Assembly (NCBI GenBank): GCA_914767715.1
Contig: OU612067.1
Location: 20,365,162-20,429,161, forward strand
Length of the DNA: 64,000 nucleotides
Source of the DNA: Membranipora membranacea
Lineage: Eukaryota; Bryozoa; Gymnolaemata; Cheilostomatida; Membraniporidae
Reading direction: 5' to 3'
Translations under genes and position numbers: made by a program
Shown here: in pieces, positions 5,910 through 59,443 of the stretch
How the letters are laid out: each line of letters begins with the position of its first letter
How positions within the stretch are numbered: position 1 is the stretch's first letter
Notes under the pieces: generated by a model
The model's database searches: none
Told to the model about the DNA's origin: nothing
The model's input: only the letters and a program-made list of their open reading frames with translations

Positions 5910-5934
5910 CGCTTGAGCTGATCACTGTCTGGTA
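5910..5934 (-). pseudogene. Remnant of LRR leading exon, copy 1
   Basis: The last ~25 bp of the exon seen whole at 24,980-25,211 survive here with the GTAAGTG donor still attached (ending in a QLKR-like reading). Upstream sequence is unrelated, so the exon is truncated. The same remnant lies at 19,760-19,784. Confidence 0.75.
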
Positions 5935-7470
5935 TATCTATCTAACTAGTATGTCAAGTAAGGGTTACAAAGGGCACAAATATAATGCAACCGCATGTAC
6001 ACACATCATGCCATGTTTCATATTCTTTCTTTATAATATAAATGTGATATATCGCTTTTTAAATCTTTTTAATATTGTATTGGTGATCATGTCCAATAGT
6101 TATTCACAGTTGAAACCTCCTAAATATTTGACATTGAGTCGCAGTGACCTCTGGAAGTTTATTTTGGGGCAAAAGTGCCCTTTTATAAATTGAGCCCTCT
6201 GTGCTTTGTTTTTGAGGTATTTGATTAGTTTATGCTTTCATCATATAGAGGAGGCATGGCACTATCAGAATGAGTGACATTTTAGTGAAACTTTATGCTT
6301 TTAGGTCTCCTGTCTTCGTGTCTTGAAATTGATTTTTGCAATAGTCATATGGCCATTTCTGACCCCTCATTACATGCGACCCCAATAATGCAGAAACTAA
6401 AAGTCAGTGTACCATTCTGGTCTTTTACTGTCACTTCCATCAATAATATTACCAGCTTACAGATCCTGGTTGTCACAACTGTAACAGATAATAACCAAAA
6501 TTTTCACTAATTACGGTCAAAATTTTCGAGCCAAAATTCAGAAATCAGGGAGATGTCAGTCAAATTTATTGTCAGCATGATGAACAGCGGGAGATTGTCT
6601 AAACTTTGATCTAAGCGAGTATTGATTATGGCTTTCAATCTTGAGATAGTTGGACTTTTGTGGCTAAACTAGCTTTATTAGGTCCAAAACATGCACTCCT
6701 CTCCAGCCAAAAGCTGAAAATAGGTTAAACAACATCTTATACACACCAGCTTCCAATAAAGTAGAGAGTATATCTAAGGTTTTGATCGTGGCGTTTGATG
6801 ATAAGTTCAGCAGTTATGGTAACTTACTGCATTATTTTGCCCGATGCTGCCTATATGTTTTCAATGTATTTTAGTTAATGTACAATTAATGAAGTGAGAA
6901 ACTTGCGGTTTAAAAAAATTTGAGATATCAGACATAAGTCAGACTACTAGCTACAAGTCTGTGAAGGAATTTTTTGAGGTGGGACAAGTAGTTCCTGAGA
7001 AACTGATGTGATGAGATGATGCATTTCTCTGCAGCCCATCCTTACTTTATTTGCCCCTTGTTATCTTAAACATCTTATATTGATACAATCTGTATTGATA
7101 GTTTTCATTTTTCTTAGAGTTAATGGAGAACAAAAATAAATGTTGCTTTACAGTACTGTGAAATCCTCACCATGCAACTAATTTTTGATGCATAATAATA
7201 TCGAATCATATTCCTGGTCACCCAGGCAGCCTACAATACATTTGTGTATCTCATGCCATAGGTTTCAAAAACTGAGACCGGTATGACAAACCAACTGCGT
7301 CCTACCAACTAGCTTGGTGGGTAGAGTTTTGTAATTTTCCCTATACAAATATTGCTTAACTTTATCATAAGTAACTGCCTGACTAGAAAATACATGTTAC
7401 ATGATCAAGTGACAGCGAAGCTAAGAATATTAAAAATGTAAGTATAACTCATGGCTAAACAAAGGAGTAA
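5935..7470. other. Non-coding, duplicated at 19,785-21,320
   Basis: AT-rich sequence with no supported exon. Short open frames (5,888-6,193 and 6,295-6,510) are conserved in copy 2 only because the whole block was duplicated recently; they show no recognisable protein. Confidence 0.6.
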
Positions 7471-7487
7471 CAGTCCCCTGCTACTCC

Positions 7488-8452
7488 TTGGCCAGCCAAA
7501 AAATGGCAGATCTCCCCTCATCTAGGGTGCAGCCTTCTCCCCCGTTCACTCACACTGGACTGGATGTTTTTGGCCCTTTCATGGTCCAGGACTACAGGAA
7601 ACAGCTGAAGAGGTATGGCCTGATATTTACATGCATGGCAAGTAGGGCTGTCCATCTCGAAGTCTTGGTCGATCTCACCACTGACTGCTTCATCAATGGA
7701 ATGAGGAACTTCCTGGCTATCCGGGCACCAGTAAAAGTGTTCTATTCGGACATAGATACAAACTTCGTTGGTGCCGATAATGAGCTCCAGAAACGATTAG
7801 ATGTACTGTCCACACAAGAGCTGAAGAAATTTCTGGAATCTCATCACAGCACCTTCAGCTTCAACGTTCCGTATGCCAGTCACATAGGAGGAGCATGGGA
7901 ACGCTTTATCCGTACAGTTAGGAATGTGCTGCATGGTATTCTTTGCGAGAAGAAGTCTACTTGGCTGGATTCATCAAGCTTACTTACATTAATGTAAGAA
8001 TGCATGTACATAATCAACTCGAGGGCTCTTACTACTCAACAACTCAGCAAAAACTCATCCAGCGAGCCTCTCCCTCTGACACCAAATAATCTACTAGGTC
8101 TACATCCGCCACCAGGAAAGTTTGAGGAACCAGACATCTACAGCAGAAAGCGATGGAGAAGAATACAGTATTTGGCGGAGCAGTTCTGGTGTAGATGGAA
8201 GCTGGAGTATTTACAAACACTTCAAACCAGATCCAAGTGGAATGAGAAAAAACAAAACAGAAAGGTGACGTGGTACTCCTGAAGGACGAGGATACACCAA
8301 GATGTGAATGGAGACTTGCCAGAATCCTCAACGGTGTAGAGAGCCCAGACAGCCTGGTAAGGAAGGTGGAGCTGAAGACTTCGTCAGGGCAAGTGTACCA
8401 GCACCCTATCCACAATCTGACACTACTCGTACCCAGCCAAACTAAAAGTTGA
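7488..8452 (+). mobile_element. BEL/Pao integrase region, copy 1 (degenerate)
   Basis: Three consecutive frames give a BEL/Pao-type pol 3' end. Bases 7,488-7,997 encode the integrase core with its three acidic sites: GLDVFGPF, YSDIDTNF and GGAWERFIR. Bases 8,004-8,282 continue with RKRWRRIQYLAEQFWCRWKLEYL, here interrupted from the first by a stop, and 8,270-8,452 gives WRLARILNGVESPDSLVRKV, the C-terminal region usual after this integrase. The frame breaks and the lack of reverse transcriptase, gag or visible LTRs show a dead 5'-truncated fragment. The copy at 21,338-22,302 is nearly identical, so insertion came before the duplication. Confidence 0.88.
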
Positions 8453-8469
8453 TTGGAAAACCGGAGGGT

Positions 8470-9020
8470 TCACAGTGGATGTATAGCTGCGGGGAGTTGT
8501 GCGCTTGTTTCTGGAATGCTTTGCATGCGTTTACCACCCCTGGCAAACTTATCATCATTCACCCTCATTGCATATCTATTCATCTAGTTTGTGTGTGTGC
8601 TGTTTCCTAATAAGGGTTAATACCATGACCATATTTGGGGAACAGCGCATACTGGCACATCATCTCCACATCATAATTTTGGGGCGTAGTCATACAAGCA
8701 GTGCTTGGGGCCAGGTTGTCTAGCTTTGAATGTGAGAGTAAAAGTTGTTAAATAATGTTGATGTAGAAGGATTATGTTTTTTGTACTCAAATCAGAGTGA
8801 CACAGATGTAAAGGTATGTTTGCAATGATTATTTATCTGTTATACTTAATATGCTATTACACATTTGCATTTATTTGATGCAGCTTTTACATATTATCTA
8901 TTTACCAATTGTTATCCTTCTGTCATCACATAATGATTGAACCTTGAATTGATATCTCAAAGTAATTGAACCGTTTTTTGATTTCAGTTTTACGAGCAAA
9001 TATAACACCTCAACAGTAAA
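8470..9020. repeat. Intron repeat, also at 13,306-13,836 and 22,320-22,860
   Basis: About 540 bp beginning CTGCGGGGAGTTGTGCGCTT recurs in direct orientation at about 13,306 (diverged) and 22,320 (near identical). It ends near TTTTACGAGCAAATATA. At 13,836 the LINE 3' end sits exactly at this repeat's end. Copy 2 lacks 11 bp near 22,510. No coding sequence is convincing. Confidence 0.8.
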
Positions 9021-9737
9021 TCCTGTCACAAATCACTCGAGTGCAGAAACTAGTTAAGCGTGCTGATGTGTGGGCTTCTCAACTGTATTTATATTTAGCT
9101 CTTAATTTCTCAAGAATACAAATTGCTCTCAACAGTGTTGGGTCAAGTACAGTAGTTTAATCATTTCAACCTGAAATAAATCCTATCAAAACACTATGCC
9201 ATTAGAGTGTAAATTACATCATTCTTATCATATTGAAAACTGTTCTCGGCACACATATATTATGATAGGACTGGATACATAGGATCCTGAACACAACAGC
9301 ATTTTCTTAGCCTTATCACAAGACAGGGCGGACTTTAAAAAAACAAGCTCACAAAATTAACCACCCGATTTTCAGAAAATTTAAGTTTTTAACGCTAAAC
9401 TCAATATAAAAAACAACTTTATGACACTTTCAAATTACATTCCCTGATGATAAGTAGAGCATTTTATTGATTGTTGATGCCGATTTTGGATCTGATGGCG
9501 AGGGAGAACAAATACAAGGACTCAAGGGATTTCAAATTAAACAATTATAAGACGTTGTGGAGCCTAGGCATGTTGAATCTTTCACTAGACAGGTGTATAA
9601 AAATGTTAATAAAAATAGATAATCATTTATTTTAAATTCAATTCACTTGATATGGTTTAGATGAATGATTTATGGTTTTTTAGATTTTTAGAAATTAGAT
9701 TTTTAGATGAATGAATATGGTTTAGATGGTTTAGAAA

Positions 9738-13836: not shown

Positions 13837-16810
13837 CTTCGATTTGGTAGTGTCTGATAAAAATTGATAAAAACCCGGCGCACCATAACAGAGAACTGAT
13901 CTAATATTTAAACAGTAAAAATCACATAAACCAGTTGAGGACATTCCCAATTTTTGGAGTTGTCTCATTAAGAATAACGTCTTAGAGTTGTATCTTTTGA
14001 TTATAGTATTAACATGTGGAATAAAAGTCAAGTGGTCATCAATGTAGATACCTAAAAACTTCATCACCTGGGAGGGATTGATGCTACCATTCTCATAAAA
14101 TACTGGATTTCGGTGTTCTTGTAAATAATTCAAATAAAAATTCAAAATGACAGTCTTGTCAGCATTTAGGAGCATGTGATTGTTTGCTGACCATAGAGCG
14201 GTCTGTTGAATGGCTGGCACAATTGATTGACTATCAGGGTTGCTCACTCTTAAATAGAAAGTGCTATCTTCTGCATACTTCACAGTTTTGAACTCGGGAA
14301 CTAAGAGATCGTTAATGTATATAAGCAACAATATTGGCCCCAGCTTTGTGCCCTGTGGAGCTCCAAAATTGATGTCAATGTATTCGGAAGTGGAGCTGTT
14401 GAATCTCACCCACTGCTTGCGTCATTTCAGGAAGTCTGCGATGAGTCTGGTAATCTGAGGGTGGAAGTTGTGGTTGTTCATTTTCTGCAGTACTATGGAT
14501 GGTTGCAGCCAATCAAAGGCTTTGGAAAAGTCCAAAGGCGCTAGCTGGATATACTTGGTTTGGAGTTTGTCGAGATCTGCTGTTATGTCATCAACAAGCT
14601 GGAGTATTGCATCAATGGTGCCTACTTTCTCCTGATATGCATACTGTGTTAGCTCAATTGTTTCCTGCAGTTTGCCCCACATTTCGTTAATCATAATTTG
14701 TTCGGCCAGTTTTCCAAGATGGAATAGCAAGGATATAGGCCGATAATCTTTGTATTTGCTAGGCTGTTTGGTTTTAGGCAGTGGTTTTACTTCTGCACTC
14801 TTCCAGATATCCGGATACTCCCCACAGTCTATCATTGTGTTCATTATGTGATGTACCGATTACACAGGTCTTCACGACCGTCTTTTGACACCCAGGATGG
14901 AGAATCTAGAGTGTTACATGCCTTGGTATGGTTGATTTTACTGAGCAGCACTTTTATCTCACCTAAACTGATGTGTTGTAGAGGAGTATGTGATGATGGT
15001 GTGTCAGGTAGGGATTCTTGGTTGATTGGCTGTTTTGGTTGTTGGTAGTGAGTTTTTTTACAGTTGCCCACCACTTTTTAGCATTTTTGTTGTCATTCAG
15101 CTGTTTGCCTACAAACTTCCTCTTGCTAGTTCTAATCATTTGCTAAACCATCGACTTGAGCTGCTTGTAACCAGAGCTGCCTTTGTTGTATGCTTTGTCC
15201 CTGGCTGTGATGGTTTTATCAATGTCTGCAGTTATCCAGGGCGGCTTGTCCTGTCGCTGTTTTTTAATCTGGTACGGACAATGTTTATCAAGGAGCTGAT
15301 CGATAGATTCGTGCAGATAAACAGCCTGTTGGTGAACATTTTGCTCGTTGCGAACATTACTCCAATCATTTTGTGATAATGATACCAGAAACTCATTCTT
15401 GTGACCTGGAGTGATGAGGCGTATTTTTACTGGGATGTAACGTTTGTGTTTTGCTGGCTGTCCTTTCATGAGTACACAGCAGTGATCGTTGTCGCCGAGT
15501 GGAGATAAGTTTTCAGCTGCATTGTATTCCTCTACATTGGTTAACACAAGGTCTAGTTTGTTGTTTTCTTGAGTAGGGTAATTAACCAGGTCATGCATGG
15601 GCGTCAGAAGGATTCACCAAGGGGTGCTCCTTTTAGCTGTGGAGTAGTTAGTGGCATGTGTAAACGGGGAGGGCGCGGGACGGGTGCAAAAGTGCCCTCC
15701 TGCCGACGAAAATTTTTTGAAATTCGAGACCCAAAAAGAGACATTCTGGTACATACCAGCCAACTTTTATGGATGAGCAACACCAAGCATGATAACAAAA
15801 ATATTTAATAGCAACAGCCTCTTGCCCGGGCCCAGATTGAAAGTTCTAGCGATAAAAGAAAACATTGAGTTCCAATTGTTAAAAAAAAAAAATTTTAAAC
15901 CTCCCAAGGGGTGCTCACTTGAGCACCCTGAGCACCCCTTCTGACGCCCATGAGGTCATGTAGGTTGAACTGTTCCAATAGATCTTCCACAGCTAATTTA
16001 TTAAAATCACTATTTATGAGGAATCTTGACTGTGGGTACTTCTTATGCAATTTCAGTAGCGTAGTCGGTATTGTTGTGTTTCTGACCGCTAAACATTAGG
16101 TGGACGGTACAAACAGCCAACTATAATAGGAGAGTAGGATTTGATGTTTATTTTTGCCCAGAGTGCAGAGAAAGTGCTGGATGTTTCTGAGGATATAGTT
16201 GTTGCATCGAGGTGGTCATGCAAGAAAATCCCTACACCTCCTCCTATTTTTTTTGTCCTGTTGCAAAAGTGGGTTTTATATCCATCGATATTAACAGTTT
16301 GCTGTTTGTCATTGTTAAGCCATGTCTCTATGGACAAATAATGCTTGGTTTGTGTATTTCAGCATGAGCCTCCAATTCCGCAAGTTTCCAAGTGTTTAAC
16401 GACCTGCAATTTAATATAGAGCAGGCTGGATGGGTGACATTTCTTTTCTTTATTAGCTGTACTGGAATGTTGTTGTTATTAAGTGACCTGCAGTTTATGT
16501 ATTGAACGACAGGATGGCTCTGTGAGGTTTTCTTATCACTCGGTGCAGGTATTGGATCTGGTCTCGATTGTTGAGTGATATGTCTAGTTTTATGTTTGCC
16601 AGCTCTGCAGCCTCGCTTAGTTTTCCTTGAGTGTAATAGATTCTTAGTGCCTAGTCCTTTAATTGCGCTAGTTTGAGATATAATATCTAAGATCTGTTTG
16701 TTGATAATTTGAAATCCATTGCTGTTGCAGTCTTTTAAGTTGAGTATATCTGCTCTGCTATAGCTAGTACGATTATCCGACATATTATATGAGTGGATCG
16801 GCAACGCCAA
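13837..16810 (-). mobile_element. Near full-length CR1/L2-like LINE, inactivated
   Basis: A minus-strand non-LTR retrotransposon of about 3 kb. From 5' to 3': a basic N-terminal region and start of the endonuclease (16,328-16,810), endonuclease core (16,089-16,337, with GGGVGIFLHDH and YRPPN), linker (15,143-15,598), then reverse transcriptase in two frames (14,422-14,844 with YRPISLL and LDFSKAFD; 13,813-14,409 with GAPQGTKLGPILL and YAED). The catalytic YADD is changed to YAED and several frames are broken. A hAT-like MITE interrupts the linker at 15,596-15,952. Its 3' end abuts the intron repeat that ends at 13,836. ORF1 and a poly-A tail are not seen. Confidence 0.85.
15596..15952. mobile_element. 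hAT-like MITE, 357 bp, inside the LINE
   Basis: The ends are the 16-bp perfect inverted repeat CATGGGCGTCAGAAGG. The 8-bp target AGGTCATG is present on both sides (15,588-15,595 and 15,953-15,960). An 8-bp duplication and a GGGCGT-type end are usual for hAT elements. The inside has no transposase, so it is non-autonomous. The insertion splits the LINE coding region. The same junction is present at 272/273 in copy 1, so it predates the duplication. Confidence 0.88.
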
Positions 16811-18429
16811 TATCTATTCGCACATATGTTTTCAGAGTTATAGTCCAAGATTTAAGCAGCGTGATCAACTAAATTCACAGAGCACCAGTTAGGTGCAGCC
16901 TACCACGGGGCAAACTAGCTAACTAATGTGAACATGTCAACTAACTTGGCCCAACATATTGTACCTCTAAGTGGATCAGGTCAATCCAGTATAAGCTCTT
17001 ATTGCTGTTAATACCAGAATACTACATTGCGGGATACTAAATGGAATGTCATCTATCCTATATCCAGCAAAAGGAGGGCAAGAAAGTAAATTCTCCAATT
17101 CTGACAAATGATCATAAATATGTAATGCTCCATATAAAATACAGATTTCTTTACAACTCTGTCCATTCACATGTCAAGGGTTTTCTCATGTCAAAGTTAG
17201 ACGACTCATGATTTTATATTTTTTCTTCGGTTTTGATCTTAGAGTGAAAAGTGAACATGTCATCTTTAATAACAATTAGTAATAAGTTCAATTCAAGAAA
17301 TGTCAACTAGAACTAGTATGATAGAAATCAATCAATAAGGGAGGGAAGGGAATATATATTGACCATTATTCTTTGCTTCCATGCTCTGCTATAAAAGAGT
17401 GAAAGTTTACTTCTCTCCCAAACCACATTTTTATCGCATTTTTTGTTGCTGCATGAATCTAACTCACAGTTGTTGCAAAAAAAAACATCTGTCTTTGCTC
17501 ATATATATATATTACCAACCAGAAACATGTAAACATTGACCCATGCTTTTATTTACTTTCTATAGAATGTTTGCTACTCCAAATGTTTTTTCATAGCAGA
17601 ATACCAAAGAGATGTTAACAATTTCTCTTAATTAAGATAATAATTCAGTGCGGAATTACAATCACAGGAATGCATTTCTAGGGCGGGGGCGCTCATAATA
17701 TTTTGATTCATTTATGAAGACTATCGGCGAAAACTTCACTGAAATTCAATAATTGCCAACAATTGATTTTTAAGTGAATGCAAGTTTTTAAAATCTGTTA
17801 CATTTGTTATAAATTTGAATTAATCTGTAAAAAGCTTATACTAAGTATTATCTGTAACAAATTTTTGTGTACATTAAATTCAGAGCATTTAATTCAGAGT
17901 ACTGAAGTGTGGGTTTCTTTTTTATTTTATTTATATTAGCTCTTGATTACAAGAACACAAATTGCTAGCAATTGCGTTTGGTCTGTTACCGCAGTTATTT
18001 CATTTTCAAACTTCAAGGTAGCTTTATATTTCGACCTGAAATAATATTTATTATCATTATCGGGAAATTGTCTTACTAATCAGAGTGAATCGCTCATCAT
18101 TCTTGTCATACTGAAGACAGATTTCTGCACCCATTTATACATCACACAACAGGACAGTTTTTAAAGAGGTTACGAGTATCCATAAAACATGCGTGCAAAA
18201 TGCACCTTACCTAACCTACCTACCTTTACCTTACCTAACCAGAAAATTAAACTTTTTTACACTAAAATGAGTCACGAAAAGGTCTAAATGGAATACGATC
18301 ACTGGAACACGGACGCGGATTCTATATAATTTATTTATAGCAGAAAATACCACTTGAAGTACTCAAAATTCACAAAATAGTTACTGTTCATCAGAAGCAG
18401 CATTGGTATATGAAGGGAAGTAAACTCAC

Positions 18430-18492
18430 CATTTAGATAAGGTTTCCAGACCACACTGCCTGATATTAAGCTCTTTTAGAGATCTGAGATTA
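18430..18492 (-). CDS. Half LRR exon (one repeat), copy 2
   Basis: Same 63-bp mini-exon as at 4,572-4,634, with the acceptor-like TACTCAG and GTGAGT donor kept and phase 2 at both ends. Sequence is unchanged from copy 1 across the coding part as read. Confidence 0.5.
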
Positions 18493-19073
18493 CTGAGTAC
18501 TGAAGTGTGGGTTTCTACGTTATTTTATTTATATTAGCTCTTGATTCCAAGAACACAAATTGCTAGCAATTGCGTTGGGTCTGTTACCGCAGTTATTTCA
18601 TTTTCAAACTTCAAGGTAGCTTTATATTTCAACCAGAAATAATATTTATTATTATTATCGGGAAATTGTCTTACTAATCAGAGTGAATTGCTCATCATTC
18701 TTGTCATACTGATGACAGATTTCTGCACACATTTATACATCACACAACAGGACAGTTTTTAAAGAGGTTACGAGTATCCATAAAACATGCACGCAAAATG
18801 CACCTTACCTAACCAGAAAATTAAACTTTTTAACACTAAAATGAGTCACGAAAAGGTCTAAATATAATACGATCACTGGAACACGGACGCCTGGAATAAA
18901 GGCAACTCAGAGTCACATTGATATTTTACCTCATCATTCAGCAGTTACAACTTCAGGGACAGATTCTATATAATTTATTTATAGCAGAAAATAAAACTTG
19001 GAGTACTCAAAATTCACAAAATAGTTACTGTTCATCAGAAGCAGCATTGGTATATAAAGGGAAGTAAACTCAC

Positions 19074-19211
19074 CATTCAGGTAAGGTCTTCAGACCACAC
19101 CTCCAGATATCCAGCTCTTTTAGAGATCTGAGATTAGATAACTCATCAGGTAATGTGATGTCATGATTATATGATACATCAAGCTTCTCTAGGCTTGTTA
19201 GGGAGCCGATC
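19074..19211 (-). CDS. LRR exon B, copy 2
   Basis: 138-bp minus-strand exon, TTTACAG to GTGAGT, phase 2-2. It differs from the 5,213-5,350 copy by several substitutions, most clustered in the second repeat (ELDIWRCGLKTLPEW instead of QLDIKECGLKTLPEW). The LRR consensus leucines are all kept, while variable surface positions have changed. That is compatible with selection on the binding face but also with chance. Confidence 0.85.
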
Positions 19212-19759
19212 CTGTAAAGAATAAACTCGTGTCATGCAGGAAAATTTACAAATTTACTCAATAACAGATATTTGTTCACTACACCTCGATTATTCTGTCT
19301 ATGCTTTTGCTGATGTGCATTGATGTCATCTGATTTGGTCTAATTATGATTGTATTGACAGAATTTATATTTCAGAATTTTAGAATCAAAACATCAGAGC
19401 AGCACCAACAACACACAAAATAGGTAATGAATTCATCAATTTAAACACGAAAAAACAAATTCTGTGCGCACCCAGTGATGCATTTTTGGAGTAACTTGAG
19501 AAAAAGATTGTTAGATTTTTACAACATGAAAAATTAATTACAATGTGCCTCATAGTAATCTCCACTCCATACTCTAACTCTCTCTTGCTTTTCGTATCAT
19601 TGATAAGTTCTCACGCCATAAAGATCGCCATTAGGTTATCTGTTTGTGGGGGGGGGAGAAGATGGAGATAGCTGACATGTTTTCTTCATTTTCTCTTAAT
19701 ATTCTTGTTATTTAACTGATGAAGTCTATAAATTAATTTGTCTTCCACATCACACTTAC

Positions 19760-19784
19760 CGCTTGAGCTGATCACTGTCTGGTA
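19760..19784 (-). pseudogene. Remnant of LRR leading exon, copy 2
   Basis: Same truncated exon end with GTAAGTG donor as at 5,910-5,934. Confidence 0.75.
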
Positions 19785-21337
19785 TATCTATCTAACTAGT
19801 ATGTCAAGTAAGGGTTACAAAGGGCACAAATATAATGCAACCGCATGTACACACATCATGCCATGTTTCATATTCTTTCTTTATAATATAAATGTGATAT
19901 ATCGCTTTTTAAATCTTTTTAATATTGTATTGGTGATCATGTCCAATAGTTATTCACAGTTGAAACCTCCTAAATATTTGACATTGAGTCGCAGTGACCT
20001 CTGGAAGTTTATTTTGGGGCAAAAGTGCCCTTTTATAAATTGAGCCCTCTGTGCTTTGTTTTTGAGGTATTTGATTAGTTTATGCTTTCATCATATAGAG
20101 GAGGCATGGCACTATCAGAATGAGTGACATTTTAGTGAAACTTTATGCTTTTAGGTCTCCTGTCTTCGTGTCTTGAAATTGATTTTTGCAATAGTCATAT
20201 GGCCATTTCTGACCCCTCATTACATGCGACCCCAATAATGCAGAAACTAAAAGTCAGTGTACCATTCTGGTCTTTTACTGTCACTTCCATCAATAATATT
20301 ACCAGCTTACAGATCCTGGTTGTCACAACTGTAACAGATAATAACCAAAATTTTCACTAATTACGGTCAAAATTTTCGAGCCAAAATTCAGAAATCAGGA
20401 AGATGTCAGTCAAATTTATTGTCAGCATGATGAACAGCGGGAGATTGTCTAAACTTTGATCTAAGCGAGTATTGATTATGGCTTTCAATCTTGAGATAGT
20501 TGGACTTTTGTGGCTAAACTAGCTTTATTAGGTCCAAAACATGCACTCCTCTCCAGCCAAAAACTGAAAATAGGTTAAACAACATCTTATACACACCAGC
20601 TTCCAATAAAGTAGAGAGTATATCTAAGGTTTTGATCGTGGCGTTTGATGATAAGTTCAGCAGTTATGGTAACTTACTGCATTATTTTGCCCGATGCTGC
20701 CTATATGTTTTCAATGTATTTTAGTTAATGTACAATTAATGAAGTGAGAAACTTGCGGTTTAAAAAAATTTGAGATATCAGACATAAGTCAGACTACTAG
20801 CTACAAGTCTGTGAAGGAATTTTTTGAGGTGGGACAAGTAGTTCCTGAGAAACTGATGTGATGAGATGATGCATTTCTCTGCAGCCCATCCTTACTTTAT
20901 TTGCCCCTTGTTATCTTAAACATCTTATATTGATACAATCTGTATTGATAGTTTTCATTTTTCTTAGAGTTAATGGAGAACAAAAATAAATGTTGCTTTA
21001 CAGTACTGTGAAATCCTCACCATGCAACTAATTTTTGATGCATAATAATATCGAATCATATTCCTGGTCACCCAGGCAGCCTACAATACATTTGTGTACC
21101 TCATGCCATAGGTTTCAAAAACTGAGACCGGTATGACAAACCAACTGCGTCCTACCAACTAGCTTGGTGGGTAGAGTTTTGTAATTTTCCCTATACAAAT
21201 ATTGCTTAACTTTATCATAAGTAACTGCCTGACTAGAAAATACATGTTACATGATCAAGTGACAGCGGAGCTAAGAATATTAAAAATGTAAGTATAACTC
21301 ATGGCTAAACAAAGGAGTAACAGTCCCCTGCTACTCC

Positions 21338-22302
21338 TTGGCCAGCCAAAAAATGGCACATCTTCCCTCATCTAGGGTGCAGCCTTCTCCCCCGTTCACT
21401 CACACTGGACTGGATGTTTTTGGCCCTTTCATGGTCCAGGACTACAGGAAACAGCTGAAGAGGTATGGCCTGATATTTACATGCATGGCAAGTAGGGCTG
21501 TCCATCTCGAAGTCTTGGTCGATCTCACCACTGACTGCTTCATCAATGGAATGAGGAACTTCCTGGCTATCCGGGCACCAGTAAAAGTGTTCTATTCGGA
21601 CATAGATACAAACTTCGTTGGTGCCGATAATGAGCTCCAGAAACGATTAGATGTACTGTCCACACAAGAGCTGAAGAAATTTCTGGAATCTCATCACAGC
21701 ACCTTCAGCTTCAACGTTCCGTATGCCAGTCACATAGGAGGAGCATGGGAACGCTTTATCCGTACAGTTAGGAATGTGCTGCATGGTATTCTTTGCGAGA
21801 AGAAGTCTACTTGGCTGGATTCATCAAGCTTACTTACATTAATGTAAGAATGCATGTACATAATCAACTCGAGGGCTCTTACTACTCAACAACTCAGCAA
21901 AAACTCATCCAGCGAGCCTCTCCCTCTGACACCAAATAATCTACTAGGTCTACATCCGCCACCAGGAAAGTTTGAGGAACCAGACATCTACAGCAGAAAG
22001 CGATGGAGAAGAATACAGTATTTGGCGGAGCAGTTCTGGTGTAGATGGAAGCTGGAGTATTTACAAACACTTCAAACCAGATCCAAGTGGAATGAGAAAA
22101 AACAAAACAGAAAGGTGACGTGGTACTCCTGAAGGACGAGGATACACCAAGATGTGAATGGAGACTTGCCAGAATCCTCAACGGTGTAGAGAGCCCAGAC
22201 AGCCTGGTAAGGAAGGTGGAGCTGAAGACTTCGTCAGGGCAAGTGTACCAGCACCCTATCCACAATCTGACACTACTCGTACCCAGCCAAACTAAAAGTT
22301 GA
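21338..22302 (+). mobile_element. BEL/Pao integrase region, copy 2 (degenerate)
   Basis: Near-identical to 7,488-8,452, including the same frame breaks. The only coding change I notice in the integrase frame is Asp to His at the seventh or eighth residue of the open stretch. The shared lesions show that both copies were already dead when the block was duplicated. Confidence 0.88.
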
Positions 22303-23536
22303 TTGGAAAACCGGAGGGTTCACAGTGGACGTATAGCTGCGGGGAGTTGTGCGCTTGTTTCTGGAATGCTTTGCATGCGTTTACCACCCCTGGCAAACTT
22401 ATCATCATTCACCCTCATTGCATATCTATTCATCTAGTTTGTGTGTGTGCTGTTTCCTAATAAGGGTTAATACCATGACCATATTTGGGGAACAGCGCAT
22501 ACTGGCACATCATAATTTTGGGGCGTAGTCATACAAGCAGTGCTTGGGGCCAGGTTGTCTAGCTTTGAATGTGAGAGTAAAAGTTGTTAAATAATGTTGA
22601 TGTAGAAGGATTATGTTTTTTGTACTCAAATCAGAGTGACACAGATGTAAAGGTATGTTTGCAATGATTATTTATCTGTTATACTTAATATGCTATTACA
22701 CATTTGCATTTATTTGATGCAGCTTTTACATATTATCTATTTACCAATTGTTATCCTTCTGTCATCACATAATGATTGAACCTTGAATTGATATCTCAAA
22801 GTAATTGAACCGTTTTTTGATTTCAGTTTTACGAGCAAATATAACACCTCAACAGTAAATCCTGTCACAAATCACTCGAGTGCAGAAACTAGTTAAGCGT
22901 GCTGATGTGTGGGCTTCTCAACTGTATTTATATTTAGCTCTTAATTTCTCAAGAATACAAATTGCTCTCAATAGTGTTGGGTCAAGTACAGTAGTTTAAT
23001 CATTTCAACCTGAAATAATTCCTATCGGGACACTATGCCATTAGAGTGTAAATTACATCATTCTTATCATATTGAAAACTGTTCTCGGCCAAATATATGA
23101 TAGGACTGGATACATAGGATCCTGAACACAACAGCATTTTCTTAGCCTTATCACAAGACAGGGCGGACTTTAAAAAAACAAGCTCACAAAACTAACCACC
23201 CGATTTTCAGAAAATTTAAGTTTTTAACGCTAAACTCAATATAAAAAACAACTTTATGACACTTTCAAATTACATTCCCTGATGATAAGTAGAGCATTTT
23301 ATTGATTGTTGATGCCGATTTTGGATCTGATGGCGAGGGAGAACAAATACAAGGACTCAAGGGATTTCAAATTAAACAATTATAAGACGTTGTGGAGCCT
23401 AGGCATGTTGAATCTTTCACTGGACAGGTGTATAAAAATGTTAATAAAAATAGATAATCATTTATTTTAAATTCAATTCACTTGATATGGTTTAGATGAA
23501 TGATTTTTGTTTTTATATGAAGGGAAGTAAACTCAC

Positions 23537-23599
23537 CATTTAGATAAGGTTTCCAGACCACACTGCCTGATATTAAGCTCTTTTAGAGATCTGAGATTA
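23537..23599 (-). CDS. Half LRR exon (one repeat), copy 3
   Basis: Third copy of the 63-bp mini-exon, with the same splice signals and phase 2-2. Confidence 0.5.
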
Positions 23600-24180
23600 C
23601 TGAGTACTGAAGTGTGGGTTTCTACGTTATTTTATTTATATTAGCTCTTGATTCCAAGAACACAAATTGCTAGCAATTGCGTTGGGTCTGTTACCGCAGT
23701 TATTTCATTTTCAAACTTCAAGGTAGCTTTATATTTCAACCAGAAATAATATTTATTATTATTATCGGGAAATTGTCTTACTAATCAGAGTGAATTGCTC
23801 ATCATTCTTGTCATACTGATGACAGATTTCTGCACACATTTATACATCACACAACAGGACAGTTTTTAAAGAGGTTACGAGTATCCATAAAACATGCACG
23901 CAAAATGCACCTTACCTAACCAGAAAATTAAACTTTTTAACACTAAAATGAGTCACGAAAAGGTCTAAATATAATACGATCACTGGAACACGGACGCCTG
24001 GAATAAAGGCAACTCAGAGTCACATTGATATTTTACCTCATCATTCAGCAGTTACAACTTCAGGGACAGATTCTATATAATTTATTTATAGCAGAAAATA
24101 AAACTTGAAGTACTCAAAATTCACAAAATAGTTACTGTTCATCAGAAGCAGCATTGGTATATAAAGGGAAGTAAACTCAC

Positions 24181-24318
24181 CATTCAGGTAAGGTTTTCAG
24201 ATAACACCATCTGATATTCAGCTCTTTTAGAGATCTGAGATTAGATAACTCATCAGGTAATGTGATGTCACGATTATATGATACATCAAGCTTCTCTAGG
24301 CTTGTTAGGGAGCCGATC
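24181..24318 (-). CDS. LRR exon B, copy 3
   Basis: 138-bp minus-strand exon, phase 2-2, two LRRs, with second-repeat end ELNIRWCYLKTLPEW. It is the only B copy that has the complete leading exon (24,980-25,211) next upstream, and the join reads QLKR-IGSLTSLEKL in frame. This pair is therefore the best supported piece of the working gene. Confidence 0.88.
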
Positions 24319-24979
24319 CTGTAAAGAATAAACTCATGTCATGCAGGAAAATTTACAAATTTACTCAATAACAGATATATTTTGTTCACTACATCTCTAT
24401 TATTCGGTCTACGCTTTTGCTGATGTGCAATTGATATCATCCGATCTGGCTCTAATTATAATTGTATTGACAGAATTTACATTTAAGAATCAAAACATCA
24501 GAGCAGCACCACAACACACAAAATAGGTAATGAATTCATCAATTTAAACACGAATAAAAAAATTCTGGGCGCACCCAATAATGCATTTTTGGAGTAACTT
24601 GAGAAATAGATTGTTAGATTTTTACAACATGAAAAATTAAGTACCATTGTGCCTCATAGTAATCTCCATTCCATACACTATCTCTGTCTTGCTTTTTGTA
24701 TCATTGATAAGTTCTCACGCAATAAAGATCGACAATCTAGCCTTTTAAATTTGAATCTACTTCCAAGGGGTCCTCTGGTTGTGGGGAGAAAAGACGGTGA
24801 GTTTCAACCATCAAGTTTTTTTATCCAAAATCTATGCCCTAGCCATTAGGTTATCTGGTTGTTTGGGGGGGGGGGGAGAAGATGGAGATAGCTGACAAGT
24901 ATTTTTCTTTTTCTCTCAATATTCTTGTTATTTTAACTGATGAAGTCTATACAGAATTTATCTTCCACACCACACTTAC

Positions 24980-28662: not shown

Positions 28663-30370
28663 ATGGCTAGTGGTGAGGAAAAGGTATCTGTGGACAAGCT
28701 TAGCAGCAAGAACTACAGCACCTGGAAGTTTAAGCTCAAACATTGATTTATCGCGAAGGAGCTATGGGGAATAGTGGATGGCTCAGAACAAGCACCTGAA
28801 AGTTCAGCAGAGCCCCCTGTTAAGGCTCAGTATGCAAAGAATCCTATTCGGGCTATGTCATATATAGTCTTAGCTGTCAGTGACAATCTGACGTATCTAA
28901 TCACGTCCTGCAACACGCCAAAGGAGGCATGGGATACCCTGCAGGGCCATTTTGAGAGAAATACTCTGGTAAATAAACTTTTCAGTAGTATTTCAGAGCT
29001 GTTATGACTGAGGGTTCCTCCGTAGAAGAGCACATTCGTTTTATGAAAGAGCATGCTGACTAGATGCTGTGATCTCTGAGGAAGATCAAATCGTAACATC
29101 GCTTGGTAGTTTACCTGATAGTTATGCAACAATGGTTACTGCTATGGAAGCACATATGGGCACACTAACTCTCCAATATGTCCAACAGGCTGTCATAAGT
29201 GAGGAGCAGCGGAGAGGTGTCGGAGGTAGGCGCCAATCGGATACAGCCTACCAAGCTGGGCATTAAAAGTTCACCCAGAACAAGTCCCGCAACTGCTATG
29301 AATGCAACAGTCCTCATCACATGAGAAGAGACTGCCCCAAGCTCAAGTCCCAGCACTCTGGCCAGAGGCATATCGCTAAAAATGCTGCAGAAATGAGAAG
29401 TTTTTGGCATCAATGATTACGGGTTTGTCATGTCTACTGCTTGTGACAACACCAAGGAGAAAAGAAAAAGTGGCTGATTGACTCGGGGGCCTCCAGTCAT
29501 ATGACTCACAATCGTGACATATTTACGGAATATACAAAGTTCGAGAAGTCGCAGAATGTCTGCCTAGGTGATGGACATATAGTGGAAGCTGTTGGTGTTG
29601 GTAATGTTGGTGTCGTCACATCGGTGAGTCGTAACAAATCCAATAGAACCACCATGCATGGCGTACTGCACGTACCGGCCATGATGGTAAATCTATTCTC
29701 AGTCAGATCAGCAGCGTCCAGAGGTATTATTGTTCAGTTCGGACATTCACATTGTTGGCTCAAAAGCAAGCAAGGCCAACTAAGGGCCACAGGAACTCTG
29801 ACTGATAAACTGTATATCCTTGATGCATGTGATGATAATGACCACAAGGTTTCGGTTGCATGCGACTTGTGGAATAAACGATTAGGGCATGCTAGTGTGC
29901 AAGTGATCAAAGCTGCACAAAACTTAGTTGAGGGTGCTGATTTTTCTAAAGTTTCTCTCGATAGTGTGTGTGAGCTCTGTGTTAAGCGCAAAATGGCTAG
30001 ACAACCTTTTTCTACTGAATCAAAGAGTCGTAGTCAAGCGACGAGGCCACTAGAGTTGATCCATAGTGATCTTTGTGGTTCAATGCAAAATAAGTCTGTA
30101 GGCGGCAGTTTTTATTTTGTGACATATGGATGACTATTCTAAATTTGCTCATGTGTATTTTATCCGCGAGAAGTCTGAGGTATTCACTAAATTCAGGGAG
30201 TTTGAGGCTCTGGTCTGTAATCAGACAGGGCTCAAGATTGGTAAACTACGTAGTGATAATGGTGGGGAGTATGTAGAATAGGGACAGATTTTGAGCGGTA
30301 TCTTTCTGATCGGGGCATACATCACCAGCTTACTGTGCGATACACACCTGAGCAAAATGGTGTTCACAAA
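28663..30370 (+). mobile_element. Ty1/Copia element, gag to integrase, broken
   Basis: Gag starts at ATG 28,663 (KLSSKNYSTWKFKLKH, then a stop at 28,744; it continues from 28,774 with KEAWDTLQGHFERN). A zinc knuckle C-x2-C-x4-H-x4-C (CYECNSPHHMRRDC) lies at about 29,294-29,335. The protease site LIDSGASSHM is at about 29,473-29,502. The pre-integrase motif LWNKRLGHASV follows, then integrase pieces LIHSDLCG, DDYSKFAHVYF, KLRSDNGGEYV and YTPEQNG. At least four stops or frameshifts interrupt it. It ends abruptly in integrase at about 30,370, so reverse transcriptase, RNase H and the 3' LTR are missing. Confidence 0.9.
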
Positions 30371-34489: not shown

Positions 34490-37400
34490 CTGAGATAGTA
34501 AACAAAGAAGGTCAATTATTAGCAACGCATCGACTGGATGCAGTGTGTAACATTAAATTATCTTAGCGCGCATTCCTCCAAGATAAAACTTGGTACCATG
34601 ACTACCCCAATAAGGAAAAATAGGAAGTTTATCTCTATTTGAATGTTACATTTTGTGTTTAGCTATGATGGCTCAGGTCACGTCACAATGTGACATGACA
34701 GATAAAGTGCAGTTTCAATCTCAGCAAAGTACAAAGTAAGCAGGTCGACACGAAAAGCTGCCGCAAGGGCCCCTTTAGAGAAGCAAAATACTCTTAGTTT
34801 CACTGATGATGATATTGTAACATATAGTTATACACATCGTTTTGTTTTCGCAGTCCGTGACAGAGATAAAAACACAACCATCCTTCCATCATGACAGCCG
34901 CCAATCCCTTTGACGGTGATAAAGGTGATGACAAAAAGTGGAAGTTTAATTATCAGCATTTTTATCTGACCGTGGGTGTAATGTTACTGCAGAATTGACT
35001 GTTGTCCATTGATAGTAATGCGGTATCATCAGTTAAATGGGTTTAGTTTAACAAACCAGGTGATATAATTGTTAAAACTTGAATTTAGCCCTTCAAGATA
35101 AAGATCGAAGACTATCTCTTGCTGTAATGTGCTAATCCACAATGTGAATTTACAAACTTACCCGAGTAAAGTATGGGAGTTGTGATTAGCTCTGTTCCTA
35201 ACTCCACTTCTCTCTGCTGTTGATAAGCTAACTCCTTCTCTATATCTGTCCTTATAAGTAATAGCTTAAGTTTCTTCTCCAGCACACGCTCAGGTAGATA
35301 TAATCTGAGATAGTTAAAAATAGGAACCTCGACACCAAAATCAGCTAAAAAAAAACAAAGAGCGCAAAGGTTAACACATGAAAAACGACATTGGAGATGA
35401 TCAGCTATCTTACATAGTATTTTCAATCGAATGGTTTGCCACATATTGAGAGCTTTTATATAGGCTGATAACGTCATCATAGTTTTTCTAGTTTATGAGA
35501 TGAACAGCGTTACTAGATTTTCTATCGCGGTCTCTATAGGACCATTGTGTCACATACCTAGTTTGCCTATGAGAGCGTTGTGTCACATACCTAGTTTGTC
35601 TATCAGAGCGTTGTGTCACATATCTAGTTTGCCTATGAGAGCGTTGTGTCACATACCTAGTTTGTCTATAAGAGCGTTGTGTCACATACCTAGTTTGTCT
35701 ATAAGAGCGGTGTGTCACACACCTAGTTTGTCTATGAGACCGTTGTAAGATTGGAAATATCATTGTCCTTGTTTTATTACCCATCACTAGGTCCATTGTC
35801 CTTGTTTTATTACCCATCACTAGGTCATGTTTTATTTAGCCACACAAACAACCAAAATCATCTTGTTTGTTTTGATAATAATTCACTATGGCTAGAACTA
35901 AACTAAGGGATGATTATGGTTGTTTGAGTGGCTAAATAAAACATGACCTAGTGATGGGTAATAAAACAAGGACAATGGACCTAGTGATGGGTAATAAGAC
36001 AAGGACACCGATATTTCCAATCTGCACATCGGGAGATTTAGTTTGAAGTTCAACAGATGTCGATAGGTTGATTGATGGTTATTTTATTGTACTATATACC
36101 TTAGACACCATAGACACCTGTTGAACTTCAAACTAATTCTCCCGATGTGCAGTACAACCGTCGTGTCACATACCTAGTTTGTCTATGAAAGCATCATGGC
36201 ACATACCTAGTTTGTCTATAAGAGCGTTGTGCCACATACCTAGTTTGTCTATAAGAGCGTTGTGTCACATACCTAGTTTGTCTATGAGAGCTCTGTGTCA
36301 CATACCTAGTTTGTCTATAAGAGCGTTGTGTCACACACCTAGTTTGTCTATGAGAGCGTTGTGTCACATACCTAGTGTGTCTATAAGAGCGTTGTGTCAC
36401 ATACCTAGTTTGTCTATGAGAGCTCTGTGTCACATACCTAGTTTGTCTATAAGAGCGTTGTGTCACACACCTGGTTTGTCTATGAGAGCGTTGTGTCACA
36501 TAACTAGTTTGTCTATGAGAGCGTTGCTTCACATACCTAGTTTGTCTATGAGAGCGTTGTGTATCAGGTCCTGTACAGCTTCCCTATCGTTGAGATATTC
36601 ATCCTGAGACACTCTGTAAGCACAGTTTCTTATGGTGGTCTTAGACACACTCTGTATCACTGATTCATGTTTACCTGCATAGTCACGCCACAGCTGTCCA
36701 ATACTTTCATATCTGTAAGATGGATACAAAAATGAAATGATATATTAGTGCTGTGGCTTAATAGATTCGGCATTGTCTAGCTAGATTATGTGGGTGAGAT
36801 TCGCCTGCATTCTTGCTCGCTACCCCTTTGTGGAAAAGCTGCTGCTAGAGGCTTGAGAGGGAGCGACTCTAAATGGAGGCAAACTGGATTTAACTTGAGC
36901 TTAGTTCACACCAGAGCATGTCCTTCAGCAGGTACAGCTGGGAAATGATACAATCAATGCCAAACTCTACTGAGAAATACACAGTCACAGAATATATGGA
37001 CAAAGTCCCTGTCATTTGGCTTGCATCCCAAGCCTTATATGGGCAACATTTTATATCTCTAGTATAATCTCTTACTTGAGGAGGTAGTAAACTTGAGCAT
37101 CTACTGACAGATCAACGTTATCTCTAGTGAACATTCCGAGATTATTAAACTCCTCCATATGCATCGTCCTGTTCAGGTACACAAACTCTTTATCAGCTCC
37201 GAGAACGTAACATCCATGTTCATAGACACGATCAGTGGATACAAGCCCAGTAGACTTTGTTCGAACCAATGCAAACTGTAATTCAGAATTTCATAAATTC
37301 AAATTCACAACATTAAGGTGACAGACCAATATTTATCAAGATTGTATAAATAATTTTTACTCAAAATACACATCCAGTATGATGGTTATGGCACAAGAGA

Positions 37401-48820: not shown

Positions 48821-49006
48821 TTGATTTATTGTTGGAGCGTGTACATTTATTATGTGACCATTGTGTCAATGACTTATAAAAATGACTGTATATCAACTGT
48901 ACATCAACTGATTATAATTATGATGGCATGCCTTATTTATACTATTGGCAGCATACTAAATGAGCACGTGACTTAATTAGTGGTCACTGCATATGAGGAC
49001 ACAACA
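48821..49006. repeat. 186-bp direct repeat, copy 1
   Basis: Repeats at 49,305-49,490 with one difference noticed (TTGG against TCGG). Each copy stays open to a shared stop as ...YCWSVYIYYVTIVSMTYKND, hydrophobic and then ending NEHVT. The two copies lie between RIOK3-like exons 1 and 2. Confidence 0.9.
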
Positions 49007-49304: not shown

Positions 49305-49490
49305 TTGATTTATTGTTGGAGCGTGTACATTTATTATGTGACCATTGTGTCAATGACTTATAAAAATGACTGTATATCAACTGTACATCAACTGATTATA
49401 ATTATGATGGCATGCCTTATTTATACTATCGGCAGCATACTAAATGAGCACGTGACTTAATTAGTGGTCACTGCATATGAGGACACAACA
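49305..49490. repeat. 186-bp direct repeat, copy 2
   Basis: See 48,821-49,006. The 298-bp spacer between copies is unrelated. Confidence 0.9.
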
Positions 49491-49728: not shown

Positions 49729-50476
49729 GTAAATTCAACTTAGAAAATATGGCCTGCACTCGGAATTGCTCCCGCAAAACTGTTGAGTCACTGGCAAAAC
49801 GTGCCTACAGAAACTTCAAAACCACACTTTATGCTTGCAGCCTATCATTAAGGTCAGGGGAATTCAAAATTCTGGCAACCCAGATCAATCTTGATCAAGA
49901 TCTGAACCAATCGTCTCCAGTTTATTCACCTGGTGGCTCCATAAATTATACGAATAGTTATCACAATACATCACTATGTAGGCTAACACAATTTGTACTG
50001 TTCATAACAAGAGACCACAACACAAGATTTACTTGAGGGCCTTTTAATTAGAATGAGCAATGCTTTACTAAAGAAAATTATCACTATCACATCGCTTAAA
50101 ATTATCGTTCACTTGGTCATTAAATTAAACATATCCATTCCCAGTCACGCAGTCAGAATACATTGATTGATTGATCGATTTCATATATTTGTCATGAGTA
50201 TTAAAAAACACTTTGATTTTTGTTCTGGGTGTAAACTGTCCATAAAGTAGTGTAAAAAGTTAAAAACTATATAGACTAAAGCAGATTGTTATAATATATA
50301 GCTCCATCAATGAGTGAGCCCTCCAAGCAGGTCTCACTCAGTGAGTGAGCGAACAGATTGCGAATTTGGCTGTTTTTAAGTGAAAGACCCCCCCCCCCCA
50401 AGATTATTGAGTCTGCATTTCTAGAAGATTCGATATGTGCGGGGATATCAAATTATGTTATTTGCAATGATTACAG

Positions 50477-50633
50477 AGTGAATGATATCCCGGCAGAGTT
50501 TTTAGTCTGTGAAGCAGACGAAGGAGACACTTCCATTGATCTGCTCATGGCTCAGATGCTGCAGATGGAATTCGATAAAGAGGCCGATAAAATGCTCAAG
50601 AGAGAACAGGATAATTATAATAGAAACAGCAAG
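50477..50633 (+). CDS. RIOK3: RIOK3-like exon 3
   Basis: From GATTACAG to GTAAGA, phase 2 to 0. It has VCEADEGDTSIDLLMAQMLQ followed by MEFDKEADKMLKRE and NRNSK. The pattern LLMAQMLQMEFD..D..LKREE..N..SK is diagnostic of RIOK3. The next family exon and the whole kinase domain are not found downstream in 50,634-56,960, so the gene is truncated, has very long introns, or is a fragment. Confidence 0.8.
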
Positions 50634-51180
50634 GTAAGAATATAAGATAAGATAGCGTGTTATTGGTGAACCCGTCAAAGAAAGTTTACAATCGTTTAAA
50701 AAGGCTCTGTGTTTGTGATGGCATATCATTTAAAACGTTGATACTGGTAGGTATGAAACTATGTGAAAACCTGAGTGAGCTAGGGAGAACTTAGGAGTTT
50801 GAAATATCAATTTTTTTTCTTTGGTCAACCCTTTTTGAGGTGAATACCATCCATGCGTCATTTTGCTATACATAGTGATAGAAATATGATGCTGGTACAC
50901 AAGAAAAAATATCTTCACATGTTGTCATATTTTTTTTATCTACTGACAGATTTTGCAACCTTGCATGAGTAGGTGGCATGTCCCTCTTTACTTCTTTGCT
51001 TCATATCTTATGAGCAATATTGTAACAATTATCAGTCCCCCCCCCCACATATGAAATAGGCCGCCAGGCTTTAACTGAACATCTCTTGCTATGAATCATG
51101 TCCGTATAATATTGTTTCCAGCATGACCATATATCAAACATATTTCAAAGTTTTCCGTTCCTGGTCAAAAAAGGAGGAAG

Positions 51181-56964: not shown

Positions 56965-57078
56965 GATCGTCGCGGTGACGGGCAGAGTGCAGAACAGAAG
57001 AGGAGACAGCAGATCAAATCTGGATTTGAGTTGTTAGCTGAGCTTATCCCTACTATACCTACAAATACTACGTCTAAA
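56965..57078 (+). CDS. MLXIP: Mondo exon: basic region and helix 1
   Basis: 114 bp, TTGCAG to GTAAGT, phase 0-0. The E-box contact pattern (AEQKRRQQI; Glu and Arg-Arg) is present. It ends TNTTSK at the start of the HLH loop, and its donor is unit 1 of the 21-bp array. Confidence 0.88.
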
Positions 57079-59443
57079 GTAAGTACCGCTGTATCTACAG
57101 TAAGTACCGCTGTATCTAAAGTAAGTACCGCTGTATATAAAGTAAGTGCCGCTGTATCTACAGTAAGTACCGCTGTATCTAGAGTAAGTACCGCTGTATA
57201 TAAAGTAAGTACCGCTCTATCTAAAGTAAGTACCGCTGTATCTAAAGTAGTACCGCTGTATCTAAAGTAAGTACCGCTGTATCTAAAGTAAGTACCGCTG
57301 TATCTAAAGTAAGTACCGCTGTATCTAGAGTAAGTACCGCTGTATCTAGAGTAAGTACCGCTGTATCTAGAATACTGACGATGGCCTGGTGCTAAACTTT
57401 ATCCGCCGGGAGTGATAATGTATTGTAGTAGAAGCTTCTGTTATATAAGCTTTCACACCAATTTAATGAATATACTATATATATATATAAATATATATCA
57501 TATTACAATATGTGATAAAAAGTGCCTTAGCCGCAATATTTGGGTCAATACTAGCTATGTATATGGTTGTAGTATTTTCACACCAATAAACATACAAATA
57601 CTTATTTGTGCATGGTAAAGATGTCTATAGCCCTACAGCCCTAAGCTGCTGAATATATTAATAACAGAGGTGAAACATGATAGGCAAGCCATCACCGGCT
57701 CCCTAATACTATCCCTGCATTATCACTACCATTTAGTATTTACTATACTTAACCGTTACTTACCTAATTACTTTTCATTACTACCATTCGCACGTACATG
57801 TATTAGGACCTCAGCAACATCAGGGATTGGATAGGATCTTTTTGTCTGAAGAACTTACCCTCTATATTTGACAGACAAGTAAGGCCAATGTTTTGGTGAA
57901 GACTATCGAGTTTATCACTAAACTTGATGATGAAAAAGTGGAGATGGAAAAAGAAATGGACGTTCTCTCTCAAGAGATAGAGGCACTGAATGATGCTATC
58001 ACGTAAGTTGTCAAATTGATAATCGGTTAGCATGCCTGCTATCCCAGGCCCGTAGTTGTGGAAATATTGGAAGGGGAGGCGGAAATCATTGAGGGTGTGA
58101 AGTAACACCAGGTTGGGTATTGTAAGCTCCTCCTGCGGAGCCTGTGGTTAATCCCCAACCTCCTAGCAATTAGAAGACCCAAATGACCTGATTCTGACAG
58201 AACATATTCAACTATAACAGTTTTAGGCCACTCTATTCAACATTCTAGGGGAGGCAGAGCTGCTACGGGCCTGCATTCACTGCCAGGTGCTGTGGATTTG
58301 TCTGTTGTAAATAAAGATTTAGCTTTGGAGGGTGCGAATGTCACATATATTGAGTAGTTATCAACTCTCTGAACCAAATGTTCAAAGAGTGGATGACTCC
58401 GAATTGCGAACATGTTTTGCAAATAATTTTATTCACCAGACTTTTCACGTTTTAATTGATCCGTACTAATTACAATATTTGCATTCTGATTATTGTCTTT
58501 GGTCATTCATCACTTTGTATATTTTTATGCCTTTCTTTTCACAGCCAATGCCAGTCCAAACTGCCAGCCACAGGTTTGCCAGCTGTCTCTCAGCAGAAAG
58601 AGCATCTGGATCAGATGTTACAGGTGTACATACAAGATCAGACTGCCAGGGATTGGAGATTTTACGTGTTTAGTAAGCTTGTCTCGCCGTTATTCGAGTC
58701 CTACTGTAAAACTGTGTCCACTGCTAATACAGATGAACTGGGCAGGACATCGCAAGCCTGGCTTGATCAACACTGTGATCTGAGTAACCTTAGACCAGGC
58801 AAGTTCTGTTTTTACCAACTTTCACACTTTGATGCTTATTTGGGTAGTCCACGTGTTCATGCTTTGATCTATTGGCCAGAAGAGGTAGGAGCAGTCTGCT
58901 GGTTGACTGATAGGACTTGGGACCATATGATCCAGGATTGATTCCCGGCTCCGTTAGTTATATCTGACGAGCTTTTAATAAATAAAAATAAATACAAGTC
59001 TATTGTGCGTTTGCACAACCAAACGCACAGTATTGTGATCCCACTCTAGCTTACAGATGCTTGCTAAATAGGGTTGTCTAATAAAACTTACCCAACTATT
59101 TAACTTTGGAGTGACATTATTTTTTTTTATTAAATTTTTATGCTAACAATGAACCAAGAAAAGATTGCGAAAGTTGATTTACTGAACGTCAAATAAATAA
59201 CTTGCCTTTTGTAGGCAGTCGAGTCTCTCAATCTTTGTATGACTTTTATCGATGAATTTAATTGTCTATCAACATTCTTTGTTTTATGTTTACACAGTTG
59301 TGGTGAAGTCATTACAGCAGCTTTGCTCAGAGACCAGTATCTTAACAGATCCAGCGCTTTTTCCTGAGGAGGCTCAGGGTTCAGCTGCCCCACCCGCATA
59401 CAACCAGAGACCTAAACCTGAGAAAACCTGGCAATTTGGATGA
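56965..59443 (+). CDS. MLXIP: Mondo-type bHLH-Zip factor, C-terminal half (4 exons)
   Basis: Exons 56,965-57,078; 57,875-58,002; 58,545-58,798; 59,298-59,443 (stop). All phases match; 213 residues. Order: basic region and helix 1 (GQSAEQKRRQQIKSGFELLA), loop, helix 2 and zipper (ANVLVKTIEFITKLDDEKV, DVLSQEIEALNDAIT), then the conserved C-terminal domain (PATGLPAVSQQ, WRFYVFSKLVSPLFES, VSTANTDELGRTSQAWLDQH, then SETSILTDP). SILTDP, PLFES and P-ATG-P mark Mondo/ChREBP rather than MLX. These factors pair with MLX on carbohydrate-response elements in glucose sensing. The glucose-responsive N terminus was not found. Odd points: a donor minisatellite in the first intron and a GC-AG third intron. 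Confidence 0.88.
57079..57371 (+). repeat. 21-bp splice-donor minisatellite (14 units)
   Basis: Fourteen units follow the exon end directly, starting at 57,079, 57,100, 57,121, 57,142, 57,163, 57,184, 57,205, 57,226, 57,247, 57,267, 57,288, 57,309, 57,330 and 57,351. Each begins GTAAGTACCGCTGTATCTA or a near variant, preceded by AAA, ACA or AGA like the true exon end. Unit 9 is 20 bp (GTAGTACC). Units 1-8 are open in the exon's frame and would encode VSTAVSK-like heptads; after unit 9 the frame shifts and stops at 57,268. Confidence 0.96.
57875..58002 (+). CDS. MLXIP: Mondo exon: helix 2 and leucine zipper
   Basis: 128 bp, TTGACAG to GTAAGT, phase 0 to 2. It starts TSKANVLVKTIEFIT, so the loop reads TTSK-TSKA across the junction. 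Heptad leucines and valines follow. Confidence 0.88.
58045..58273. mobile_element. 229-bp MITE in a Mondo intron
   Basis: Inverted 11-bp ends CAGGCCCGTAG / CTACGGGCCTG, hAT-like in style. No clear target duplication is visible. Confidence 0.6.
58545..58798 (+). CDS. MLXIP: Mondo exon: C-terminal dimerisation domain
   Basis: 254 bp, TTCACAG to a GCAAGT donor (GC instead of GT). It joins in phase 1 to the last exon as LRP-V-VVKSLQQL. Confidence 0.88.
59298..59443 (+). CDS. MLXIP: Mondo last exon
   Basis: 146 bp from TACACAG to TGA: VVKSLQQLCSETSILTDPAL, then EEAQGSAAPPAYNQRP and a WQFG end. Confidence 0.88.

Follow-up and report, generated by a model that had tools for sequence, protein, structure and literature searches.

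Exon-boundary repeats that multiply a donor site

Two human genes, ABCA7 and CBS, are already known to have a VNTR at an exon boundary in which the 5' splice site is repeated, and Lievers et al. 2001 reportedly described alternative splicing at the 31-bp VNTR of the latter. The ABCA7 intron 18 VNTR has a 25-bp unit whose first two bases are the exon 18 donor, and next-unit donor use, shown by cDNA PCR and sequencing, results in a 25-nt insertion in 2 +/- 1% of transcripts, as read from the order of the paper's figures (PMC5954066). In the same report, unit-number variation was shown between people, exon 19 skipping rose with VNTR length with one-unit retention unchanged, and cycloheximide raised premature-stop transcripts (PMC5954066). 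The CBS 31-bp VNTR lies over the exon 13/intron 13 boundary, denoted c.1444_1467+7(16_21) with 16-21 units, a notation from which each unit reads as 24 exonic and 7 intronic bases such that the donor is repeated (PMC2630376).

Two further systems are related. Nearby donors compete and generate subtle variants at GYNGYN and 4-nt tandem donors, although as described these are two sites 3-4 nt apart with no repeat array (PMC1779574, PMC2423196). Splice signals are also multiplied during intron gain by tandem duplication, which makes a new intron (PMC4974935), whereas the array described below multiplies an existing donor.

A 21-bp minisatellite with repeated donors was identified in a 64-kb stretch of Membranipora membranacea DNA (the window) and was grouped with the ABCA7 and CBS repeats on account of the same architecture, as it spans an exon donor (inferred from the join of an HLH domain) and carries a donor in its units (GTAAGT in 13 of 14). 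As in ABCA7, many units are arranged in tandem beginning at the exon donor and, as in CBS, the unit spans the boundary. In contrast, the ABCA7 array begins at the first intron base, belongs to a transporter gene, and has a unit of 25 bp that is not a multiple of three, such that a retained unit shifts the frame (PMC5954066), while the 31-bp CBS unit, also not a multiple of three, lies in an enzyme gene (PMC2630376). Two features belong to the present array itself, namely a unit length that preserves the frame and a location within a dimerisation-domain loop.

Structure of the array and of the exons it joins

Tandem Repeats Finder identified the minisatellite at 57073-57369 (period 21 bp, 14.2 copies, 94% matches, score 524), and a unit-by-unit reading gave 14 units with unit 9 one base short at 20 bp, in agreement with the 14 units of 21 bp claimed by an earlier sequence-only reading (Table 1). 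Each unit consists of the last six exon bases (TCTAAA) plus the first fifteen intron bases, in the register TCTAAA/GTAAGTACCGCTGTA. The array had been said to start at the exact exon/intron boundary; it does span the donor at 57079, but its start is 57073 since the repeat takes in the six exon bases. Compared to the consensus, the units carry nine substitutions of five distinct kinds plus the single-base deletion in unit 9, and the variant units (TATAAA, TCTACA, TCTAGA, and the one deletion) are scattered through the array.

Table 1. Coordinates of the array, its donor sites and the exons of the host gene.
Feature	Positions	Strand	Evidence
Exon a (38 codons), encoding basic region and helix 1, DRRGDGQSAEQKRR...IPTNTTSK	56965..57078	+	Pfam HLH
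21-bp minisatellite, 14 units	57073..57365	+	Tandem Repeats Finder, unit-by-unit reading
Donor 1, AAA/GTAAGT, loop without insert	57079..57084	+	
Donors 2-8 (57100, 57121, 57142, 57163, 57184, 57205, 57226), in frame, +7 to +49 residues	57100..57231	+	
Donor 9, weak site GTAGTA in unit 9, use would keep the frame (+56 residues)	57247..57252	+	
Donors 10-14 (57267, 57288, 57309, 57330, 57351), intact, out of frame, premature stop	57267..57356	+	
Exon b, rest of loop, helix 2, zipper, TSKANVLVKTIEF...	57875..58002	+	Pfam HLH join
Exon c, QCQSKLPATGLP...NLRP	58545..58798	+	Frame join
Exon d with stop, VVVKSLQQLCSETSILTDP...TWQFG	59298..59443	+	Join reads through, no earlier stop

When donor 1 was joined to the acceptor that precedes 57875, the product contained a complete HLH domain (Pfam PF00010, 47.1 bits against a cutoff of 20.7, profile positions 7-52 of 53), which upheld the earlier placement of the array at the loop between the two helices. 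Since this join has the highest HLH score, the donor at 57079 is most likely the constitutive site. Of the 81 residues of the joined protein, 1-73 could be aligned to MAX structures, and the gene product is a bHLH protein with MAX as its nearest solved relative. Exon b is preceded by TTTGACAG and followed by the donor CAC/GTAAGT at 58003, and exons b, c, and d maintain a continuous frame to the stop ending at 59443. The donor of exon c is a GC site (CAG/GCAAGT at 58799) whose join to 59298 is backed by the uninterrupted frame.

The sequence-only reading had further named the gene a Mondo factor, of which the bHLH part was established by PF00010 and the MAX structures, while the Mondo name is based on C-terminal motifs. 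These are LPATG in exon c, which we take to be a Mondo/ChREBP signature, and TSILTDP in exon d, presumably a Mondo signature; the bHLH-zipper gene is probably of the Mondo type. Exon c had no Pfam match, matches to PDB ended by residue 85 of 213, and NCBIfam returned four weak matches, all far below their own cutoffs. Four short, strict patterns for the N-terminal Mondo regions gave no match in six frames, and the 5' part of the gene may lie outside the window. Protein searches of collections poor in animal DNA returned 891 candidates for exon a plus the array, none at E <= 0.001, and no candidate for exon c. In vertebrates, the ancestor has been assigned 17 coding exons, and one intron, located at codon 728 in human MLXIPL, is described as common to Mlxip, Mlxipl, Mio, and Mlx (PMC4766361).

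A near-perfect GTAAGT donor had been proposed for each unit. The hexamer is intact in 13 of 14 units and is replaced by GTAGTA at 57247 in unit 9, and the donors, although good, fall short of perfect and differ in quality because the -1 base is A instead of G throughout, the -2 base varies (A/C/G), and scores with a textbook matrix are 5.5 for eight of the 13 intact donors against 3.2-3.3 for the other five (donors 2, 5, 6, 13, and 14). By this matrix the 13 were nonetheless the top 13 GTs within 56990-57869. Their predicted pairing with the U1 5' end ranged from -6.7 to -7.8 kcal/mol, compared to -5.7 and -7.4 kcal/mol at the exon b and exon c donors, and the matrix and the U1 pairing rank the copies differently, as donors with AGA are low by the former and best by the latter. 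The window (GC 37.8%) holds 45 GTAAGT on both strands versus 33.9 expected (sd 5.6), and 13 of the 45 sit in the array on one strand. In a two-class donor scheme, the GURAG class has strong U6 and weaker U5 pairing (PMC9803359), and the array donors would fall nearer to this class as it is outlined there, which may make the choice among them easier to shift. How position ranks a large set of like donors is unpredictable; SRSF1 and hnRNP A1 are reported to favour opposite sides (PMC5585400).

Each of the 14 donors was joined in silico to exon b and the frame checked. Donors 1-8 keep the frame with 0, 7, 14, 21, 28, 35, 42, and 49 added residues, and donor 9 would keep it with 56 residues but its site is broken, while all five of donors 10-14 lead to a premature stop. 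As had been read earlier, units 1-8 are free of stops and the frame is closed by the missing base of unit 9, with the stop at 57268-57270. The proposed series of zero to eight seven-residue blocks from donors 1-9 therefore holds in frame but shortens to zero to seven with intact donors, since donor 9 is needed for the eighth. Because splicing at the intact donors 10-14 would end in a premature stop, the array could reduce expression in addition to generating isoforms. The products of donors 2, 3, and 8, with 7, 14, and 49 extra residues, retained Pfam HLH matches of 39.8, 43.1, and 41.5 bits, and exon a with the array left unspliced to 57246 scored 29.4 bits, although a profile match across an insert reflects the tolerance of the model and says nothing of a working protein. 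With 49 residues inserted, the best single stretch of HLH similarity runs from residue 8 to 42, which is helix 1 and the loop start only.

All nine differences from the consensus unit (five distinct kinds) are non-synonymous in the exon's frame, seven of them in units 1-8 and two in units 10-14. A unit has 63 possible single changes, comprising 17 silent, 45 residue-replacing, and one producing a stop, and by hand calculation the probability that none of five kinds is silent is about 0.2. Purifying selection acting on the seven-residue blocks was thus unsupported, and units 1-8 could stay free of stops without any selection, as a stop arises from one in 63 single changes. The donor hexamer was hit by none of the five substitution kinds and by one deletion, and selection on it was likewise without evidence ((15/21)^5 ~ 0.19). 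RNA structure hiding or exposing the donors was rejected because the predicted folding of the array did not surpass that of shuffled sequences (z -0.06, with 44 of 100 shuffles folding at least as well).

Other sequence features of the array and the window

The acceptor-like CTACAG occurs in units 2 and 5, and an intron from donor 1 to either would be very short. A minus-strand ORF of 147 aa overlies the array and is presumably a by-product of the open repeat. No match was found in the whole window with Rfam at the gathering threshold, nor in viral contigs with an exact scan for a 36-base pattern of the repeat.

A second repeat region was identified at 35545-36562, consisting of two main blocks of a 33-bp unit (6.1 and 12.2 copies), with two short arrays of another 33-bp unit in between, inverted relative to each other; the region is open in 11-residue repeats, and the minus-strand consensus unit of the main arrays, TAGGTATGT, is donor-like. 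Positions 1-1458 are duplicated at 15681-17139 (98.9%) and 3255-9680 at 17113-23514 (98.8%), with 1459-3254 lacking a counterpart in the second copy (15681-23514) and a third partial copy at 23514-24731 (95.5-96.1%). The pair 1-9680 and 15681-23514 could be a recent duplication or two haplotypes placed end to end in the assembly. A 186-bp direct duplication with 99.5% identity was found at 48821-49006 and 49305-49490. Positions 29447-30133 encode a Pol polyprotein fragment with Pol_BBD and gag_pre-integrase domains, presumably Copia-like. An exon-like ORF at 50349-50642 has no Pfam match and appears to resemble the N-terminal region of RIOK3; four RIO patterns were searched in the window, and the loosest alone matched elsewhere, at a single site (31932) where stops interrupt the frame.

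Origin and splicing of the array

The account we lean towards is a young minisatellite with splicing mainly at donor 1 and a low-level leak to later donors. The 21 bp across the exon/intron junction would have been tandemly duplicated to form the array, and most transcripts would be spliced at donor 1 with a small share using later donors. Splicing that leaks to donors 2-8 would lengthen the HLH loop by 7-49 residues rich in Ser/Thr/Val/Ala, while leak to donors 10-14 would produce premature-stop transcripts that nonsense-mediated decay should remove. This leaky account is favoured because the later intact donors carry the hexamer of donor 1 with similar predicted U1 pairing, and because of the precedent of one-unit retention at 2 +/- 1% in ABCA7 (PMC5954066). 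Two points count against it, in that leak to donor 2 would be reduced, as its matrix score is 3.3 compared to 5.5 for donor 1, and that the order of preference among so many like donors is unpredictable.

Without any leak, the array would be a neutral intronic minisatellite in which donor 1 alone is used, exon context fixes the choice, and the message is unaffected. This is an unlikely reading that nevertheless carries some weight, being consistent with the best HLH match from the donor 1 join and with the encoded blocks bearing no sign of selection. However, the hexamer of donor 1 is common to the later intact donors and its matrix score recurs in seven of the 12, and the donor of the next unit is used at about 2% in ABCA7 (PMC5954066).

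In a further reading, the array would mainly cut gene output, via donors 10-14 or skipping of the neighbouring exon, and a longer array would act more strongly. Donors 10-14 are intact and all five yield a premature stop, longer ABCA7 VNTRs are associated with reduced expression and increased skipping of the following exon (PMC5954066), and CBS enzyme activity is lower when the 31-bp units are more numerous (PMC5188458). Against this, the five out-of-frame donors are preceded upstream by eight intact in-frame ones, and an expression-reducing role was judged rather improbable.

A regulated in-frame series, with loop-length isoforms differing in dimerisation or DNA binding, is possible but unsupported and was given a very low likelihood. 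It would be consistent with a unit of 21 bp being divisible by three, with units 1-8 being open, with the placing of the insert in the loop, and with the HLH match being kept by the +7, +14, and +49 residue forms. One third of unit lengths are in frame by chance, though, the encoded blocks are without a sign of selection, the best single HLH stretch of the longest of these forms stops at the loop start, and one-unit retention was constant across the VNTR lengths reported for ABCA7 (PMC5954066). A related proposal in which unit number and splicing-factor balance set the loop-length mixture, the loss in unit 9 turning the distal donors into a brake linked to nonsense-mediated decay, seems just as remote and is disfavoured because the reported ABCA7 retention did not track repeat length (PMC5954066). 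Least credible is a mis-assembly of the unit number or of the whole array. The assembly may not be clean, given that the 98.8-98.9% duplication elsewhere in the window could be two haplotypes end to end, yet the scattered unit differences would be unlikely to arise from a repeated stretch of reads.

The locus constitutes a natural multi-donor construct in which thirteen 5' splice sites with an identical hexamer line up at one exon end and eight share a matrix score, so that position is the main variable. The ranking of like donors by place has mostly been studied with minigenes, and RNA from the array locus would show how the spliceosome ranks such donors. In contrast to the ABCA7 and CBS arrays, the unit length here preserves the frame, and if the in-frame forms exist, the locus would be a case of a repeat tuning the loop length of a transcription factor.
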